Positions 9,883 through 19,602 of a stretch of DNA of 33,154 nt are shown here, in pieces; the first letter of the stretch is position 1, and each line of letters begins with the position of its first letter. The notes beneath the pieces were generated by a model. The model did not search any database. It saw nothing but the letters and a program-made list of their open reading frames with translations, and was not told the DNA's origin. This stretch comes from Geminicoccaceae bacterium. GTDB taxonomy: Bacteria > Pseudomonadota > Alphaproteobacteria > Geminicoccales > Geminicoccaceae. Position numbers and translations under genes: made by a program. The stretch spans positions 1 to 33,154 of the forward strand of contig JAGRGG010000004.1 in assembly GCA_020445645.1 (NCBI GenBank). Direction: 5' to 3'.

Positions 9883-11217
<1,335 letters not shown>

Positions 11218-13253: not shown

Positions 13254-15044
13254 CTAGCCTTCCAAGAGCCAGCCGCGGATGACCCCGACCGCGTCCTCGG
13301 GCCGGGACTGGATCAGCCCCGTGACGTCCTGGACGAGCGCCGCGTGGACCCTGCCCTCGATGTTCTGGAGCACCATGCCTTCGGGCTGCTCTCCGGCCGC
13401 CCCGGGCGCATCGCCTGCCGCAAGGGCGGCGGGCGGGGCGTCGCCGGCAAGGGTGCTTAGCTCGGAACCGGTCGTGGCGACGGTTTCCAGGGACGCCTTT
13501 TCCTGCTCGGGCAGGAGGCGGCGCAACAAGGGCCGCACGCCGAAGAGCAAAGTGAGGATCGAGACGACGAGGAGGACGGCGGGCTCGACGAGGCCGAGCA
13601 GGTCGGCGCGGCTGAAGTCGAGAAGGGTTTCTTCGGGTGCCGCCTCGGGCTCGACGGCGATGAACTGGCGGCTGAGGATGGAAACTGTGTCGCCGCGCTC
13701 CTCGTCGAGGCCGAGCGCCGTCCGCACCAGGGTCTCGAGCTGCGCCAGCTCCTGGGCGTCGCGCGGCTGGAAGGCGAGCGTTCCGTCGGTGGCCGGGGCG
13801 TAGACGCCGTCGACCTGCACGGCGACCGACAGCCGCTCGATGCGCCCGCCGCGCTTGAGCTGGTTCTTGACGGTGCGCGAGACCTCGTAGTTGACGGTTT
13901 CCTCGGTGCGGTTGGTCTGCTCCTGGCTCGCGTCCCCGCCGCCCGCCTGCTGGTTGCGCTCGGCGGGCAGGTTGTTGGCGACGCTCACCCCTTCCTTCGC
14001 CGCCTTCTCGCTCGCATCGCGCTGCTCCTCGACCGTCTGGGTGCTGCGGACGACCTGCCCCTCGGGATCGTAGGTCTCCTGGGTGGTCGTCACCTCGTCG
14101 AAGTCGACGAGGGCCGTGACCTGGGCGTCGACCCGGCCCCGGCCGATCGTCCGTTCCAACAGCGTCACGACCTTGCGCTTCAGCCGTTCCTCCAGGCTCA
14201 CCTTGTAGTCGTCGGCCTCGTCCATGAGCAGGCCGTCGGCCGCGTCCTGGCCGCCCCGCGCCAGGAGGTCGCCGGCGTCGTCGAGGATGGTGACGCCCTT
14301 GGCGTCGAGGCCCGGCACCGACGAGGCGACCAGGTGCTGGATCGCCCCGATCTCCCGCCGGTCTAGCCCGCCCGCCACGCGCAGGCTCAAGAATACCGAA
14401 GCGCTCGGCTTCGTCTTCTCGCGCTGGAAGAGCTCGCGCTTCGGCTGGACGAGGTGGACCCGCGCCGAGCGCACCTGACGCATGCTGCCGATCGTCCGCG
14501 CCAGCTCGCCCTCGAGCGCGCGCTTGAGGTTGACGTTCGAGAGGAACTCGGTGGTGCCGAAAGGGTCGGCGTTGTCGAAGATCTCGTAGCCGACGGTCCC
14601 GCCGCCCGGCAGGCCCTCCTCGGCGAGGCTCATGCGCAGGCGCAGGGCTTCCTCGGACGGCACGAAGACCGAATCCCCGGCGCCCCCGAGCCTGTAGGGC
14701 ACACCGAGCGCCTCGAGCCGCCGGACGATCTCCTGGCTGGCACCCAGATCGAGGTCGGCGTAGAGCAGGGTGTAGCGGGTTTCGAGCGCCCGCCCGATGA
14801 GGAAGGCGAAGAAGGCGGCGAACGCCAGGGCGACGAGCCCGAGCGCCACGATCCGCCGCCCGCCAAGGGCCTGGATCTGGACCAAGGGCCGCGCCACCAC
14901 CGCCGGCAGGTTGCCCGCCATCGGCCCGAGCGGCCGTCCACCGGCCGGCACGAGGTTTCCGCCGGCCGTAGGCCCGCCCGCTTCGGGCCTTGCCAAACCT
15001 GCTTCGATCTCTTGGGCCATCGCCAAAGCTGTCTCTCTCGGCAT
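13254..15044 (-). CDS. fliF: Flagellar MS-ring protein FliF
   Basis: FliF builds the MS ring in the cytoplasmic membrane, the first flagellar structure assembled and the seat of the export gate. The 596-residue product has a cytoplasmic N-terminus, a membrane segment at about 65-84, and YscJ/FliF ring-building domains with the signature ARVHLVQPKRELF and ASVFL. A variable Gln/Asn-rich periplasmic stretch follows, then a second membrane segment at about 482-503. The 90-residue C-terminal tail includes the FliG-binding end. The ATG at 15044 lacks a strong ribosome site; an ATG at 15020 with GAGAGA upstream is possible. It heads fliF-fliG-fliH-fliN-flbD and is preceded by a near-consensus CtrA box. 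Confidence 0.97.
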   Translation of the reverse strand: MPRETALAMAQEIEAGLARPEAGGPTAGGNLVPAGGRPLGPMAGNLPAVVARPLVQIQALGGRRIVALGLVALAFAAFFAFLIGRALETRYTLLYADLDLGASQEIVRRLEALGVPYRLGGAGDSVFVPSEEALRLRMSLAEEGLPGGGTVGYEIFDNADPFGTTEFLSNVNLKRALEGELARTIGSMRQVRSARVHLVQPKRELFQREKTKPSASVFLSLRVAGGLDRREIGAIQHLVASSVPGLDAKGVTILDDAGDLLARGGQDAADGLLMDEADDYKVSLEERLKRKVVTLLERTIGRGRVDAQVTALVDFDEVTTTQETYDPEGQVVRSTQTVEEQRDASEKAAKEGVSVANNLPAERNQQAGGGDASQEQTNRTEETVNYEVSRTVKNQLKRGGRIERLSVAVQVDGVYAPATDGTLAFQPRDAQELAQLETLVRTALGLDEERGDTVSILSRQFIAVEPEAAPEETLLDFSRADLLGLVEPAVLLVVSILTLLFGVRPLLRRLLPEQEKASLETVATTGSELSTLAGDAPPAALAAGDAPGAAGEQPEGMVLQNIEGRVHAALVQDVTGLIQSRPEDAVGVIRGWLLEG

Positions 15045-15079
15045 GTCGCTTCTGCCGGAGAGGCTTAGGCCCAGTCTGG

Positions 15080-15094
15080 TAAAGATGCGGTTAA
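15080..15094 (-). promoter_or_regulatory. Near-consensus CtrA box upstream of fliF
   Basis: On the minus strand this reads TTAA-N7-TTTA followed by CC, one mismatch from the CtrA consensus. It is centred about 43 bases before the fliF ATG, and the fliF promoter of Caulobacter is also CtrA-dependent. That parallel supports the call; no binding data exist here. Confidence 0.6.
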
Positions 15095-15140
15095 TGCGCC
15101 GCTGCCGGACGTTTGGCCGGGCGGTTCGTCTTCGGCCTCG

Positions 15141-15161
15141 GCGCCGCCCGTCGGGCGGCGC
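15141..15161 (-). terminator. GC-rich hairpin between sciP and fliF
   Basis: Bases 15141-15149 pair perfectly with 15153-15161 (9 bp, 3-base loop) about 50 bases past the sciP stop. No T-tract follows on either strand. It may end or attenuate sciP transcripts before the fliF promoter, but the structure alone does not prove it. Confidence 0.4.
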
Positions 15162-15209
15162 GGACGGACCCGTCGGGGTGCGCCCGCCGGCGGTGAGCCT
15201 TTGGAATTC

Positions 15210-15482
15210 CTAGCGGAACTCCTGCAGCCGCGTCACCCGCAGCCCGCCCATGCCGTGCCGGTCGATGGCCTTTTCCCAGGAGCCGAATTCCTCGGCCGAG
15301 ATGTTGTAGCGCGTGCAGGCCTCCTCGAAGGTCATGAGCCCGGCCCGCACCGCCGTGACGACTTCCGCCTTGCGCCGCGCCACCCAGCGCCGCGTGTCGG
15401 GCGGCGGCAGGGTGTCGAGGCTGAGCATGGTGCCGTCCGGTCCGACGACCATCCGGGGACGTTCCGCTAGGGTTTCCGACAT
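15210..15482 (-). CDS. sciP: SciP-family CtrA inhibitor (DUF1153)
   Basis: SciP is a small helix-turn-helix protein that, in Caulobacter, binds CtrA and blocks transcription activation from CtrA-bound promoters without preventing DNA binding. The 90-residue product has the family core: PPPDTRRWVARRKAEVV, then an Ala-rich helix, then TFEEACTRYNISAEEF, WEKAIDRHG, and a C-terminal LRVTRLQEFR. A GGAGA ribosome site precedes the ATG. It stands alone between flgE (upstream) and fliF (downstream), with promoter-like AT-rich DNA before it containing a TTAA-N7-CTAA site. Its location among CtrA-boxed flagellar genes fits its role. Confidence 0.93.
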   Translation of the reverse strand: MSETLAERPRMVVGPDGTMLSLDTLPPPDTRRWVARRKAEVVTAVRAGLMTFEEACTRYNISAEEFGSWEKAIDRHGMGGLRVTRLQEFR

Positions 15483-15625
15483 GGGGCATCTCCGCCGATT
15501 TGCCGTTTCGCTTTCCGGCTCTTCTTCAATGTTGCTTGTTCTAACTTATAGGTCTTTAATGACAGCCTAATCATCATGGTAAATGCCACTCAAATTCGAT
15601 CGAGACGTGAAGAACATTTCCAGGC
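15483..15625 (-). promoter_or_regulatory. AT-rich promoter region of sciP with near-CtrA site
   Basis: This 143-base gap is far more AT-rich than its surroundings. Bases 15556-15570 read TTAA-N7-CTAA, one mismatch from the CtrA box. sciP is itself CtrA-activated in Caulobacter, so a feed-forward inhibitory loop is plausible. Exact -35 and -10 elements could not be fixed by eye. The upstream neighbour flgE ends at 15626, and no terminator hairpin is obvious after it. Confidence 0.5.
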
Positions 15626-16921
15626 TCAGCGGGTTATCTGCATGAGCTCGCCGAGCATGTCGTTGGCGGTCGTGATGATCTTTGCGTTGGCCGAGTAGGC
15701 GCGCTGGGTAACGATCATCTTCGTGAACTCCTCGGCGATGTCGACGTTGGCGCCTTCGAGCGAGGAGGGGATGAGCGAGCCCGCACCGCCCGTGCCGGCG
15801 AAGCGCAGGTTCTCCTCGCCGGACGCGGTGGTCTTGGCGAAGACGTTGCCCGAGCGCGAGTCGAGGGCGGAGGGGTTGGCGAAGGTGGCGATCGCGAGTT
15901 TGTAGAGGTTGCGCGTCTCGCCGTTCGTGAAGCTCGCCGAGAAGTAGCCCTCCTCGTCGATGCTGACGCCCGTGAGCGTGCCGGCCTCGACGCCGTTCTG
16001 CTTGACGAAGGCGACGTTGCTGGGGCTCGCGAACTGCGTCACCCCGTCGGTGTCGCCGACCGTGCCGAGCTTGAGGTCGATCGTGCTGGGCGAGGCGCCG
16101 AGCGCGGCGTCCCAGGTCACGGCCATCGGCATGGGGGCCAGGGTGCTGCCGGCGAACGCGCCCGTGCCGTCGAAGGTGAGATCGCCCGACGCGATGAGCC
16201 CGCCCGGGTGCGCGACCGCATCGACGGAAGCCGGATCGGCGTAGGCCTCGGTCGCCCAGGTGTTGGCGCCCGTCTTCAGGAAGCCGACGGTGAGGTCCTG
16301 GGCACGACCGAGGCTGTCGTAGACCTGCATGTTGCGGGTGAAGTGCGGGGGCACGGCCCCGGCCGCCATGTCGCCGGCCGCGTAGGCGCCCGCGTAGGCC
16401 ACGGCGTCGGCGTCCAGGTTGGCGCTGAGCTCGATCTCGGTCGTCGCCCGGGCGACGCCGTTGAGGGGGCCGGTGGCGACCGTCGTGAGCTGGTTGAGGT
16501 CGGCGATCTCGCCGTTCTCGTCGAGCTTCCAGCCGCGGAGGTAGAAGCCGCTGGGCGTGCGGAGGTTGCCGAGCACGTCCGGCTGGAACGCGCCGTCGCG
16601 GGTGTAGACCTGCTCGCCCGAGCCGTCCGCCTTCGCGTTGACGGCGAAGAACCCGTTGCCGGAAATGGCGACGTGGGTCGGCGAGCCGCTGCCCTGGACG
16701 AGGCCCTGCTTTTCGACCGAGCGCGCGGTGATCGCCCGCACCCCGCCCGGCGCGTAGGGGGCCTTGGTCGAGCTTTGCGTCACGAGGTCGGAGAACTGGG
16801 CGGCGGCACCCTTGTAGCCCGTCGTGTTCACGTTGGCGACGTTGTCGGAGATCATGCTCATCGCGCGGCTCTGGGCGCCGAGGCCCGAAACGCCGGAGAA
16901 CATCGAACCAAAAAGGCTCAT
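15626..16921 (-). CDS. flgE: Flagellar hook protein FlgE
   Basis: FlgE polymerises into the flagellar hook after export by the type III apparatus. The 431-residue product starts MSLFGSMFSGVSGLGAQSRA and carries the rod/hook N-terminal motif SDNVANVNTTGYKG. The middle section is less conserved. The C-terminal rod/hook helix includes GANVDIAEEFTKMIVTQRAYSAN, split here as ANVDIAEEF and QRAYSANAK. There is no cleavable signal peptide, as expected for this export route. A GAAGGAG ribosome site lies upstream of the ATG. It is the third gene of fliK-flgD-flgE, following flgD by 41 bases. Confidence 0.95.
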   Translation of the reverse strand: MSLFGSMFSGVSGLGAQSRAMSMISDNVANVNTTGYKGAAAQFSDLVTQSSTKAPYAPGGVRAITARSVEKQGLVQGSGSPTHVAISGNGFFAVNAKADGSGEQVYTRDGAFQPDVLGNLRTPSGFYLRGWKLDENGEIADLNQLTTVATGPLNGVARATTEIELSANLDADAVAYAGAYAAGDMAAGAVPPHFTRNMQVYDSLGRAQDLTVGFLKTGANTWATEAYADPASVDAVAHPGGLIASGDLTFDGTGAFAGSTLAPMPMAVTWDAALGASPSTIDLKLGTVGDTDGVTQFASPSNVAFVKQNGVEAGTLTGVSIDEEGYFSASFTNGETRNLYKLAIATFANPSALDSRSGNVFAKTTASGEENLRFAGTGGAGSLIPSSLEGANVDIAEEFTKMIVTQRAYSANAKIITTANDMLGELMQITR

Positions 16922-16962
16922 CGGCCCTTAACTCCTTCGTTGATCTTGTCGTTGGTTGACGA

Positions 16963-17640
16963 TCAGGCGGCGGACGCCGGCGCCCGCCTGATGCCGTGGA
17001 CGACGTCCATCGGGCGGGGCACGCCGCCGACGACGAGGAAAACAGCCCCGCCTTCCTGCTCGATCGCTTCGACGAGGCCGTTCACCTCGGTCTTGGCGGC
17101 AAGGGGGACGCCCCCGGCGTCGAGGGCGGAGACGCGCAGGCGGTAGGCGCCGGGGGGCAGGCGGTTGCCGGCGGCGTCGCGCCCGTCCCAGGCAAGCGTG
17201 TGCCGCCCGGCGTCGGCGGGGCCTTCGAGGAGGCGCACCGTCCGGCCGGCTTCATCGAGGATCTCGACGCCGAGCGAATTCGCCGCCTCGGGAAGCTCGT
17301 AGCCCAAGGGCACGTCCCCTTCGGCGCCCAGGCTGAAGCCGTCGCCCTCGATGCGGACCTCGGCGCCCAGGTAGCCGAGCGCCGCCGTGGCTTGGCTCGT
17401 CTCGATGACCCCGATCAGCTTGCCGAGTTGGTCGTTGGTGCGGATCGCCTGCTCGACGGTCGAGAATTGCACGAGCTGGGAGGTGAACTTGTCCGAGTCC
17501 ATCGGGCTTAAGGGGTCCTGCTGCTGCAACTGCGTCGTCAGGAGCTTCAGGAAGCCCTCGAAGTCGCCGGCCAAGCCCTTCGCCGCCGCCGAAGTCTTGT
17601 CCGGCGCGGTCGTGGCGGCGTTCGTCACGGTGAGCGGCAT
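16963..17640 (-). CDS. flgD: Hook capping protein FlgD
   Basis: FlgD is the temporary scaffold cap on which FlgE subunits assemble; it leaves when the hook is complete. The 225-residue product has the conserved N-terminal motif FLKLLTTQLQQQDPLSPMDS, with QLVQFSTVEQ after it. An Ig/tudor-like C-terminal half contains WDGRDAAGNRLPPGAYRL, typical of FlgD. The ATG at 17640 is preceded by an AGGAA ribosome site. It lies 14 bases after fliK. Operon order fliK-flgD-flgE pairs the length-control protein, the cap and the hook subunit. Confidence 0.95.
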   Translation of the reverse strand: MPLTVTNAATTAPDKTSAAAKGLAGDFEGFLKLLTTQLQQQDPLSPMDSDKFTSQLVQFSTVEQAIRTNDQLGKLIGVIETSQATAALGYLGAEVRIEGDGFSLGAEGDVPLGYELPEAANSLGVEILDEAGRTVRLLEGPADAGRHTLAWDGRDAAGNRLPPGAYRLRVSALDAGGVPLAAKTEVNGLVEAIEQEGGAVFLVVGGVPRPMDVVHGIRRAPASAA

Positions 17641-17654
17641 GAGGGTCGTTCCTA

Positions 17655-18941
17655 TCAGGCTTGGATGTCGTAGAGGCGGTCGAGCAGGACGCGGCGGGCA
17701 GCGCCCGGTAGGGCGGCGGGCTCGTCCGCGACGCCGTTCACGGGACGCCGTCCGCCCCGGAAGCGCCCCTCGCCGCCCGCGTGGCGGTCGCCCTGCTGGC
17801 GCAGGTTCATCTCGATCCCGCCGCCGAGCTGGAGGCCCTGCGCCGCGAGAACGCGCTCGATCTGGCGGGTATCGCGCTGGAGGAGCTCCAGGGTCTCCGG
17901 CCGCTCGGCGGCGATGACGACGTGGGCGCGCTGGTCGCGGCCCACCTCGACGGTGACGTCGACCCCGCCGAGTTCCTCGGGGTGCAGGCGGACCTCAAGG
18001 CGATCGATCCCCTCGCGGACGGCGTGGACGATCTCGACCGGCAGGTCGACGAGCGGTATCGGGTGCGCCGGGCGGGCGACGGATGCCATCGCCTCGGCCC
18101 TGTGCGCGTGGTCGGCGGCGACGGTGGTGCCGAGGGTCGTGGCGAAGAGGGGGCGAAGCGCCTCGGCGCCGGCGCGGTCCGGCGCCGGCAAGCCCTCGCC
18201 GGCGTCGCCCCGGTCCTTGCCGGGTGCCTGTTCGGCGATGGTGGTCGAGGGCGTGGCGGTCGTCCCGGCGGCAAGGGGCGCTGGGGCGGCATCGGCTTCG
18301 GCACCCGCCGGAGCGGATGGCGGAGGCTGGACGAGGCCCTCTATCCCCTGTCCGGCACCGGCGTCTCCGGCCGGCAGGGCCAAGGGCGACGCGGCGCCAT
18401 CGACGGGGCGGGAGGGAGCGGCGGGACCGGCCGTTGCCTGCGCTTGGCCCACGGCCCCTCCGGTCGCCGGGAGCGGGGCCGCCTGGAAGACCAGCCAGAA
18501 CGCCATGAGTTGCTGATCGGCGGTGGGCTCGGACACGGCGTCCCCGGCGGGCGGGTCGAGATCCTCCAGCACCACGGGCGGGGCCGCGTCGGCGGGCTGT
18601 TCCGGTTGCGCCGGCCGCATCGGTCGGACTTGGAGGAACTCGGTGAGGAAGGCCGCGAGGCGAGACTGATTCGGGGTCCCTGGCGGATTCGCCGCCGTGG
18701 GCAGGTCGAGGGCGGGCGTCGCGTCTGGCGCTTCGGGCGGCACGACCCCGTCGCCCGTCGCCTTCGACAGGGCGTCACCAGCGGGCGTGGCGAGGACGCC
18801 CGTTGCGGCTGGCGCCGGCGGCAAAAGCGAGGCCAGCAGGGCAGCGAACAGGTCCGGGAACGCGGCCTCGCCCGTCGCAGCGTTCGGGAACGCGGCGGCG
18901 AGGGGACCGGGACGAGGGGGGGCGGAGGTTTGGTCGATCAT
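17655..18941 (-). CDS. fliK: Flagellar hook-length control protein FliK
   Basis: FliK measures hook length and switches export specificity from hook to filament proteins. The 428-residue product has a long low-complexity Pro/Ala-rich N-terminal part (about 1-290) and a C-terminal Flg_hook domain with RLEVRLHPEELGGVDVTVEV and a following AAERPETLELLQ segment. This layout is typical. The ATG at 18941 is chosen; a TTG at 18983 would make the coding sequence run through the sigma-54 promoter and is rejected. No ribosome site is visible, and the predicted transcript starts only about 4-5 bases before the ATG, so translation may be nearly leaderless or begin further in. Confidence 0.85.
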   Translation of the reverse strand: MIDQTSAPPRPGPLAAAFPNAATGEAAFPDLFAALLASLLPPAPAATGVLATPAGDALSKATGDGVVPPEAPDATPALDLPTAANPPGTPNQSRLAAFLTEFLQVRPMRPAQPEQPADAAPPVVLEDLDPPAGDAVSEPTADQQLMAFWLVFQAAPLPATGGAVGQAQATAGPAAPSRPVDGAASPLALPAGDAGAGQGIEGLVQPPPSAPAGAEADAAPAPLAAGTTATPSTTIAEQAPGKDRGDAGEGLPAPDRAGAEALRPLFATTLGTTVAADHAHRAEAMASVARPAHPIPLVDLPVEIVHAVREGIDRLEVRLHPEELGGVDVTVEVGRDQRAHVVIAAERPETLELLQRDTRQIERVLAAQGLQLGGGIEMNLRQQGDRHAGGEGRFRGGRRPVNGVADEPAALPGAARRVLLDRLYDIQA

Positions 18942-18955
18942 GGCAAGGACCGAGG

Positions 18956-18971
18956 AGCAAGGCCCGTGCCA
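18956..18971 (-). promoter_or_regulatory. Sigma-54 (-24/-12) promoter of fliK-flgD-flgE
   Basis: The minus strand reads TGGCACG-N4-TTGCT, a full match to the RpoN consensus TGGCACG-N4-TTGCW. Counting from the GC of the -12 element, transcription should start near 18945. The operon downstream encodes hook proteins, the class driven by sigma-54 and FlbD in Caulobacter, and flbD is in this window. Confidence 0.88.
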
Positions 18972-19003
18972 GATAGGAAACAAGCGGCTTTCGGTGCGTC
19001 GCG

Positions 19004-19062
19004 GCCGGGGAAAGGCAGGGTTCCCCGGCAGGACTTGCCGGGTGGGCAGGGCGTTTCCTGCC
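19004..19062 (-). promoter_or_regulatory. Overlapping inverted repeats: candidate FlbD sites or dksA terminator
   Basis: Three inverted repeats crowd this gap. Bases 19004-19012 pair with 19021-19029 (9 bp), 19024-19030 (CCCGGCA) with 19036-19042 (TGCCGGG), and 19045-19050 (GGCAGG) with 19057-19062 (CCTGCC). The first two share bases and so are mutually exclusive as hairpins. They lie about 60-115 bases upstream of the fliK transcription start, the usual range for a sigma-54 activator. They also follow the dksA stop at 19078, so termination of dksA is the alternative; no T-tract is seen. Confidence 0.5.
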
Positions 19063-19077
19063 GCGCTGGGGGAGGGC

Positions 19078-19494
19078 TTATTCCTCCCGGTAGACCTGCT
19101 CGCGCCGCTCGTGGCGTTCCTGGGCCTCGATGCTCAAGGTGGCGATCGGGCGGGCGTCGAGTCGGCGCAGGCCGATCGGCTCCTGGGTGTCCTCGCAGTA
19201 GCCGTAGGTGCCGTCCTCGATGCGCTGGAGGGCCGCCTGGATCTTGTTGAGCAGCTTGCGCTCGCGGTCGCGGGTGCGCAGCTCGAAATTGCGCTGCGCC
19301 TCGGCGGAGGCCCAGTCGCTCACGTCGGCGAGGCGCTTGTCCTCCTCCTGGAGCTGGCGGAGCGTCATGCCGGAGCCGCGCAGGATCTCGTCGCGCCAGT
19401 GCAGGAGTTTGCGGCGGAAGTAGGCCGTCTGGCGCGGGTTCATATAGGGCTCGTCCTCGCTCGGCCGGTAGGTCTCGTCGACGACTTCGTCCAT
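19078..19494 (-). CDS. dksA: RNA polymerase-binding transcription factor DksA
   Basis: DksA enters the RNA polymerase secondary channel and, with ppGpp, adjusts transcription during the stringent response. The 138-residue product has the N-terminal coiled coil, with tip acidic residues Asp57 and Asp60 in the motif DVSDWASAEA, and a C-terminal globular part ending in AQERHERREQVYREE. Of the four zinc-ligand cysteines of E. coli DksA only the first is kept (Cys100); the others are Thr103, Ser121 and Ala124, as in many alphaproteobacteria. The ATG at 19494 has a strong GGGGGAG ribosome site and is preferred to an upstream start at 19557. Confidence 0.94.
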   Translation of the reverse strand: MDEVVDETYRPSEDEPYMNPRQTAYFRRKLLHWRDEILRGSGMTLRQLQEEDKRLADVSDWASAEAQRNFELRTRDRERKLLNKIQAALQRIEDGTYGYCEDTQEPIGLRRLDARPIATLSIEAQERHERREQVYREE

Positions 19495-19572
19495 GCGGCT
19501 CCCCCTTTCCTTAAGCGACGGCGAGCCTCGATTAGCCAATGGCCGGTTCGCCCGCAAGCTTTAGATCGGGGA

Positions 19573-19602
19573 TTCGTAGGCTTAAGAGCTTGAAAAGCGC
19601 AA
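19573..19602 (-). promoter_or_regulatory. Possible housekeeping promoter of dksA
   Basis: On the minus strand TTGCGC (19602-19597) is followed after 18 bases by TACGAA (19578-19573), a fair match to a -35/-10 pair. It sits in the AT-richer gap between the moeB-like gene and dksA, about 80 bases before the dksA ATG. The match is modest. Confidence 0.3.

Follow-up and report, generated by a model that had tools for sequence, protein, structure and literature searches.

The locus considered here stands closest to two described systems. The first is the regulator FlbD, whose action at ftr sites has been described (PMC3930126), and for which, together with FliX, a fliK-lacZ fusion is used in Caulobacter as class III reporter (PMC3096577). 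The second is leaderless mRNA, which is bound mostly by 70S ribosomes at the 5′-proximal AUG (PMC9031893) and of which 375 examples, translated about as well as other mRNAs, are recorded in Caulobacter (PMC4117421) and 171 in Sinorhizobium (PMC3616915). The two appear to meet in a stretch of 33,154 nucleotides from a Geminicoccaceae bacterium (assembly GCA_020445645.1, contig JAGRGG010000004.1, positions 1 to 33,154 of the forward strand; hereafter the window), where a sigma-54 promoter lies on the minus strand immediately ahead of fliK, whose product controls hook length. We consider it likely that FlbD and sigma-54 give rise here to a near-leaderless fliK-flgD-flgE mRNA.

The fliK promoter and the predicted transcript start

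Reading the minus strand from 18971 to 18956 gives TGGCACG GGCC TTGCT, with the T of TGG at 18971 and the C of the -12 element at 18957. The site matches 11 of 11 specified bases of the sigma-54 consensus TGGCAC-N5-TTGC (GG at -24, GC at -12), in keeping with a preliminary description of this DNA that had called TGGCACG-N4-TTGCT on the minus strand consensus-perfect. The same description had predicted the transcription start near 18945 and the fliK ATG at 18941-18939 with no ribosome site, and all three statements hold: 12 steps from the -12 C lead to +1 at 18945, with G18944 the closest purine and a predicted leader of about 4 nt, which is too short for a Shine-Dalgarno sequence, and the DNA just upstream of the ATG pairs weakly with the anti-Shine-Dalgarno sequence (-2.4 kcal/mol). 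In all, 14 bases separate the end of the motif (18956) from the ATG. For the Caulobacter spmX promoter, the RpoN motif is given at -26 (PMC4287350), which corresponds to about 13 steps from the -12 C and would put +1 in the window at G18944.

The exact motif has a single match in the window, and matches with at most two mismatches are at chance level there (9, against a shuffle mean of 10.3). The whole genome holds 3 exact matches, with about 2.4 expected from composition, and 36 matches if up to one mismatch is allowed, compared with 81 when the pattern is reversed. These counts rule out motif counting by itself as evidence, and since the motif is not over-represented genome-wide, the case rests on context and comparison. 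What makes the site convincing is its position, the FlbD-like palindrome upstream of it and the fact that relatives share it in the same position. The genome also encodes RpoN (G000:C143; PF04552, 217.9 bits, above cut-off) and a FliX that is above its cut-off.

The FlbD-like palindrome, which had escaped the preliminary description, is of the type CGGCA-N5-TGCCG or near. In 13 of 17 family loci such a palindrome precedes the promoter by about 70-100 bp, where mononucleotide shuffles predict 0.24 loci by chance; it also occurs in 28 of 61 other loci, a set that includes a few duplicates and long-leader family loci. It resembles the ftr sites of FlbD, and we regard it as a putative ftr site. 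A second, looser palindrome, CGGCAGGAAACGCCCTGCC, lies just upstream of it (19045-19063, minus strand) and is possibly a tandem FlbD site.

Comparison of fliK leaders within the family

The stretch upstream of flgD was sought in the 31 genomes of the family, including the window's own. Six had no FlgD match, one was left out because its flgD is split over contigs, and one is cut off inside fliK, leaving 23 readable loci (the leader of L082, one of the long-leader loci, was read by hand). In all 23, the window included, fliK adjoins flgD, and in 17 of the 23, representing 11 of 14 genera, the first in-frame ATG falls 1-5 nt past the computed +1. The preliminary description had proposed such a comparison of fliK starts in relatives, leaving two options for the window, and the outcome favors the first of them, a nearly leaderless fliK mRNA. 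In two further loci, both at contig ends (L254 of G029 and L267 of G020), fliK starts with the same layout, which brings the total to 19; their BLAST matches are weak (best E 0.51 and 0.020, respectively), and they were kept on the basis of promoter, genus and FxxLL-type motif, the core count without them being 17. Leader lengths in the 19 short loci are 1 nt in one, 2 nt in four, 4 nt in 11 and 5 nt in three.

Given an in-frame ATG rate of 34/2079 in the first hundred codons, and omitting the one locus without a sigma-54 site (L084), the chance of finding an ATG at 1-5 nt is about 1e-21 for 17 of 22 loci and about 3e-15 for 11 of 13 genera, figures that treat the loci as independent, though relatives are not. 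In a quick FlgD tree 20 of the 23 family rows cluster, and g15 and g16, the genera with long leaders, branch from within the short-leader ones, with many of the forks weakly supported; the tree is compatible with one gain of the short leader and later lengthening, without proving it.

The start module and the choice of start codon

That all 19 short loci start with ATG follows from their selection for ATG. The three bases before it are GCC in 17 loci and GGC in two, so that a G three bases before the ATG is invariant (19/19), while positions -14, -13 and -11 to -9 of the ATG-aligned loci are nearly free of information. Because this G lies anywhere from 10 to 14 nt from the -12 C, the module tracks the ATG and not the -12 element, and the G would suit as the initiating nucleotide. 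GCC precedes the flgD start in only one of 17 of the same operons. Pairing with the anti-Shine-Dalgarno sequence in these operons likewise distinguishes the two genes, with a median of -6.4 kcal/mol for flgD, the start of which was chosen generously, versus -3.4 kcal/mol for the DNA before fliK (p 0.007). Between short and long fliK leaders the difference is modest (p 0.02), as in the short set the DNA ahead of the ATG is for the most part promoter and not mRNA. In 16 of 19 loci the first 45 nt counted from GCC show less folding than mononucleotide shuffles do (mean z +0.9).

Three observations make the ATG at 18941 very probably the start of fliK. In the aligned loci, the third-position enrichment of frame-phased GC (0.81) is found only downstream of the fliK ATG. 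The distance from the ATG to the FxxLL motif, which could be located in 17 of 19 short family loci and 27 of 37 outgroup loci, has a median of 30 residues in the former and, similarly, of 34 in the latter, long-leader set. Finally, the next in-frame ATG, GTG or TTG in the window's fliK is a TTG at codon 40, beyond FxxLL, a conserved motif of the N-terminal part, at about residue 31, which leaves little room for the second option of the preliminary description, a true start further in. For annotation this carries a warning, in that an absent ribosome site is no reason to shift fliK starts downstream in this group.

Sigma-54-dependent starts elsewhere

Outside the family, 55 non-duplicate fliK loci reach a sigma-54 score of 14 or more. 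Measured to the first ATG, GTG or TTG, a rule by which some starts may be misplaced, their leaders are 18-40 nt in 34 loci, 6-17 nt in eight, more than 40 nt in eight and 0-5 nt in five (L088, L094, L124, L125 and L145). Shine-Dalgarno sequences are frequent in the 18-40-nt leaders, as in GAGGAAGCACC-ATG of L133. A near-leaderless start is thus as unusual for a late flagellar gene as the preliminary description had supposed. By eye, a GGCGGAT- or GGCGAAT-like stretch around +1 seems recurrent in long-leader fliK promoters of other orders (for example L137, L122, L135 and L163).

A general sigma-54 pattern with an ATG at 9-39 nt was searched in 80 relatives, many of its matches falling inside other genes, and 60 places were read from the family matches listed, with fliK loci left out and products named by eye. 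The recognizable products are FlgF (two genomes), a PII-like protein, a hydrogenase small subunit and ABC transporter and binding proteins, and the leaders of their genes span about 18-55 nt and in most cases contain GGAG, GAGG or AAGG; the remaining places, many of them in long open frames or opening no useful frame, were left out of the count. A LivH-like permease in L259 with 2-nt spacing was rejected, its motif lying inside a long open frame. Since these recognizable genes, which stand behind the exact sigma-54 motif, keep leaders of this length, the near-leaderless layout is, on the sequences compared, more than how sigma-54 works in the window's family. The second exact motif of the window's genome (G000:C78, L239) lies near the start of a gene that by eye is flgI-like, within a longer open frame, with ATG options at 6 and 48 nt.

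The exact motif combined with GCC-ATG gave non-fliK matches in three of the 17 matching genomes of the family (G013:C10, G024:C457 and G019:C150). Across the class it was matched in 12 of 385 genomes, with one control match. Two of the 12 are family fliK genes, and five are genes for an SLT-like protein from three other families, with leaders of 2-5 nt (L286-L289 and L292, near position 1500 in each). The products of L284 and L283 are other or unknown proteins, and L285, L290 and L291 were discarded as opening no useful frame. In L283 (G176, about 1501-2251), the gene that follows the exact sigma-54 motif, with a leader of 5 nt and GCC-ATG, encodes a protein with no Pfam or NCBIfam match. The SLT-like protein has a signal-peptide-like start, and a search with it gave matches in 128 of 289 genomes. 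Among the best 30 loci, which were read, 17 have an upstream sigma-54 score of at least 14, and in six of the 17 the leader does not exceed 5 nt, three of the six being in the same genomes as in the class-wide GCC-ATG search. The protein is named on weak matches (to SLT of Pfam at E 0.01, under the cut-off, and to TrbN at E 7e-4, far under it), and it may be linked to the flagellar enzyme SltF. Judged by the 2-5-nt leaders of this gene in other families, the sigma-54 near-leaderless design seems to recur beyond fliK.

The operon and its neighbors

A gap of 14 nt separates the end of fliK from flgD, and a search of 15000-19600 for terminator-like sites gave none, a layout that fits the earlier proposal that the promoter also drives flgD and flgE. 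Sigma-70-like promoters were likewise not found in 15000-19600, a result that holds for organisms whose promoters are of this type. The TTG at 19557 given as the dksA start is the mechanical open reading frame (ORF) start and probably too far upstream. Between flgE and fliF (15210-15482, minus strand) lies a gene for a 90-aa DUF1153 protein (PF06627, E 4e-39), a family that includes SciP, a Caulobacter cell-cycle regulator.

Table 1. Features of the fliK locus in the window, and related loci
Feature	Position	Strand	Remarks
Sigma-54 -24/-12 element TGGCACG-N4-TTGC	18957..18971	-	next T = 18956; kept upstream of fliK in family relatives
Predicted transcription start region	18943..18946	-	computed from -12 C; likeliest purine G18944
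Supposed leader stub GCC	18942..18944	-	GCC in 17, GGC in 2, of 19 family loci
fliK start codon ATG	18939..18941	-	in frame with FliK ORF; third-position GC enrichment only downstream
FlbD/ftr-like palindrome CGGCAAGTCCTGCCG	19026..19040	-	centered ~88 bp upstream of +1; putative ftr site
fliK coding sequence, first gene of transcript	17655..18941	-	PF02120, E 4.3e-16 (scanned ORF began at upstream TTG 18983)
flgD, second gene, Shine-Dalgarno-like AGGAA	16963..17640	-	PF03963 and PF13860
flgE hook protein, third gene, strong AAGGAG	15626..16921	-	NF004242 over cut-off
dksA, upstream neighbor	19078..19557	-	TIGR02420 over cut-off; ends 136 nt before fliK ATG
FlbD-like sigma-54 activator, likely regulator	9883..11217	-	NF050807, 702.8 bits (cut-off 750, just under), and Sigma54_activat
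Further SLT-like loci behind sigma-54 (L293-L296, L300, L309)			ATG 2-5 nt after +1

Discussion

In the explanation that we favor, an FlbD-like protein bound at the palindrome about 88 bp upstream would activate sigma-54 RNA polymerase, and the fliK-flgD-flgE transcript would begin at or beside G18944. The 5′ end of the mRNA would then read 5′-(U)GCC-AUG, and as a leader of about 3-4 nt has no room for a Shine-Dalgarno sequence, FliK would be translated in leaderless fashion, probably by 70S ribosomes binding the 5′-proximal AUG, with flgD and flgE initiating from their own Shine-Dalgarno-like sites. The promoter, the spacing, the start codon and the contrasts with flgD and the outgroup come from sequence comparison, and from them we infer the exact 5′ end, activation by FlbD and 70S initiation.

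Several points weigh against this explanation. The 5′ end and the FliK N-terminus are predictions, and the sigma-54 motif alone is at chance level genome-wide. Within the family, the leaders of five loci (genera g15 and g16) measure 24-40 nt and a further locus (G003, L084) has no sigma-54 site at fliK, and in a few short loci the flanking DNA does pair with the anti-Shine-Dalgarno sequence (e.g., -10.5 in L065), so that a longer transcript could be Shine-Dalgarno-led there. In addition, leaderless translation is reported to drop in some species when extra 5′ bases set the AUG back from the 5′ end (PMC9031893). This last point suggests the hypothesis that the 3-4-nt stub may hold FliK low relative to FlgE.

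Whether the layout means anything is a separate matter, and here the odds that it is a product of neutral decay fall just short of even. On this account the Shine-Dalgarno leader was simply lost, since Alphaproteobacteria translate leaderless mRNA well, and the arrangement has no regulatory meaning. The nesting of g15 and g16 among short-leader genera on the FlgD tree, weakly supported as it is, makes the short-leader trait seem reversible and speaks for this account. Neutral decay does not, however, predict that G(C/G)C-ATG should be invariant in 19 of 19 loci, across genera whose FlgD is mostly 40-48% identical to that of the window. The longer leaders kept by the other family sigma-54 genes with a recognizable product also count against it.

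A more far-reaching idea, which we put forward tentatively and think rather less probable than neutral decay, is that 5′-GCC-AUG is a selected regulatory device. Translation of FliK would depend on 70S initiation and on a primary 5′ end that is still intact, and that of flgD and flgE on ordinary Shine-Dalgarno sites, giving a low dose of the hook ruler, dependent on mRNA age, relative to the hook protein. The same design would have arisen more than once, in fliK of the window's family, in fliK of a few other lineages and, with leaders of 2-5 nt, in the SLT-like gene of several other families, and GCC itself may be a positive signal for 5′-end initiation.

A sub-variant of the favored explanation, unlikely in our estimation, makes the A of the ATG the initiating nucleotide and the mRNA strictly leaderless. 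Such mRNAs are the measured class in Caulobacter and Sinorhizobium (PMC4117421, PMC3616915), and in the four loci with 2-nt leaders a distance of only 14 nt separates the A from the -12 C. That distance is 16 nt in most loci, the window among them, against the roughly 13 implied by spmX (PMC4287350), and the invariant G at -3 would be left unexplained. It is more improbable still that fliK is transcribed mainly from further upstream, by read-through from dksA or from another promoter, with the sigma-54 site a minor start. In its favor, the interval from dksA to fliK gave no terminator-like site, there is an in-frame TTG (18983) ahead of +1, and L084 lacks the sigma-54 site; but no sigma-70-like promoter was found in 15000-19600, within the reach of the scan noted above, the sigma-54 site and the palindrome are conserved at this place, and a long leader would still have no Shine-Dalgarno sequence before the window's ATG. 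A FliK start further downstream, for which the missing ribosome site before the ATG is the sole argument, is highly improbable given the lack of any in-frame ATG, GTG or TTG before codon 40, an ATG-FxxLL distance that agrees with outgroup starts (median 30 vs 34) and GC phasing that sets in at the ATG.

The near-leaderless fliK mRNA that we favor bears on the question of why particular alphaproteobacterial genes use leaderless mRNA. It also provides a natural paired comparison, of short with long leaders and of fliK with flgD on one mRNA, in which the effect of 5′-end initiation on protein dose can be tested. No report of a sigma-54-driven leaderless fliK was recognized in the accessible parts of the open-licence literature, which excludes subscription papers, so its absence is unproven. 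The case is a variation on what is known of sigma-54/FlbD flagellar promoters and of leaderless mRNA, and not a new system. Leaderless mRNA itself is common in Alphaproteobacteria, and the new part is the conserved coupling of a near-leaderless start to a late flagellar sigma-54 promoter.

The locus resembles the class III flagellar promoters of Caulobacter crescentus in its sigma-54 element, its FlbD-like regulator with FliX, its ftr-like palindrome and the gene concerned (PMC3930126, PMC3096577). It differs from them in that the palindrome here is upstream, and the Caulobacter/Phenylobacterium rows (L135, L161 and L163), unlike the window, have their first in-frame start 50-56 nt from +1. 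One Caulobacter study, to go by its title, reportedly concerns 3′ (downstream) elements. The sigma-54 fliK promoters of other alphaproteobacterial families share the gene, the -24/-12 element and often the palindrome, but their leaders, usually 18-40 nt (34/55), have room for a Shine-Dalgarno sequence. With the alphaproteobacterial leaderless mRNAs the predicted fliK mRNA has in common an AUG at or beside the 5′ end, no Shine-Dalgarno sequence and little 5′ structure (PMC4117421, PMC3616915). It would depart from the Caulobacter and Sinorhizobium sets, in which the 5′ end is the A of the AUG, in having 1-5 bases before the AUG, and it combines these with a sigma-54 promoter and an invariant GCC or GGC.
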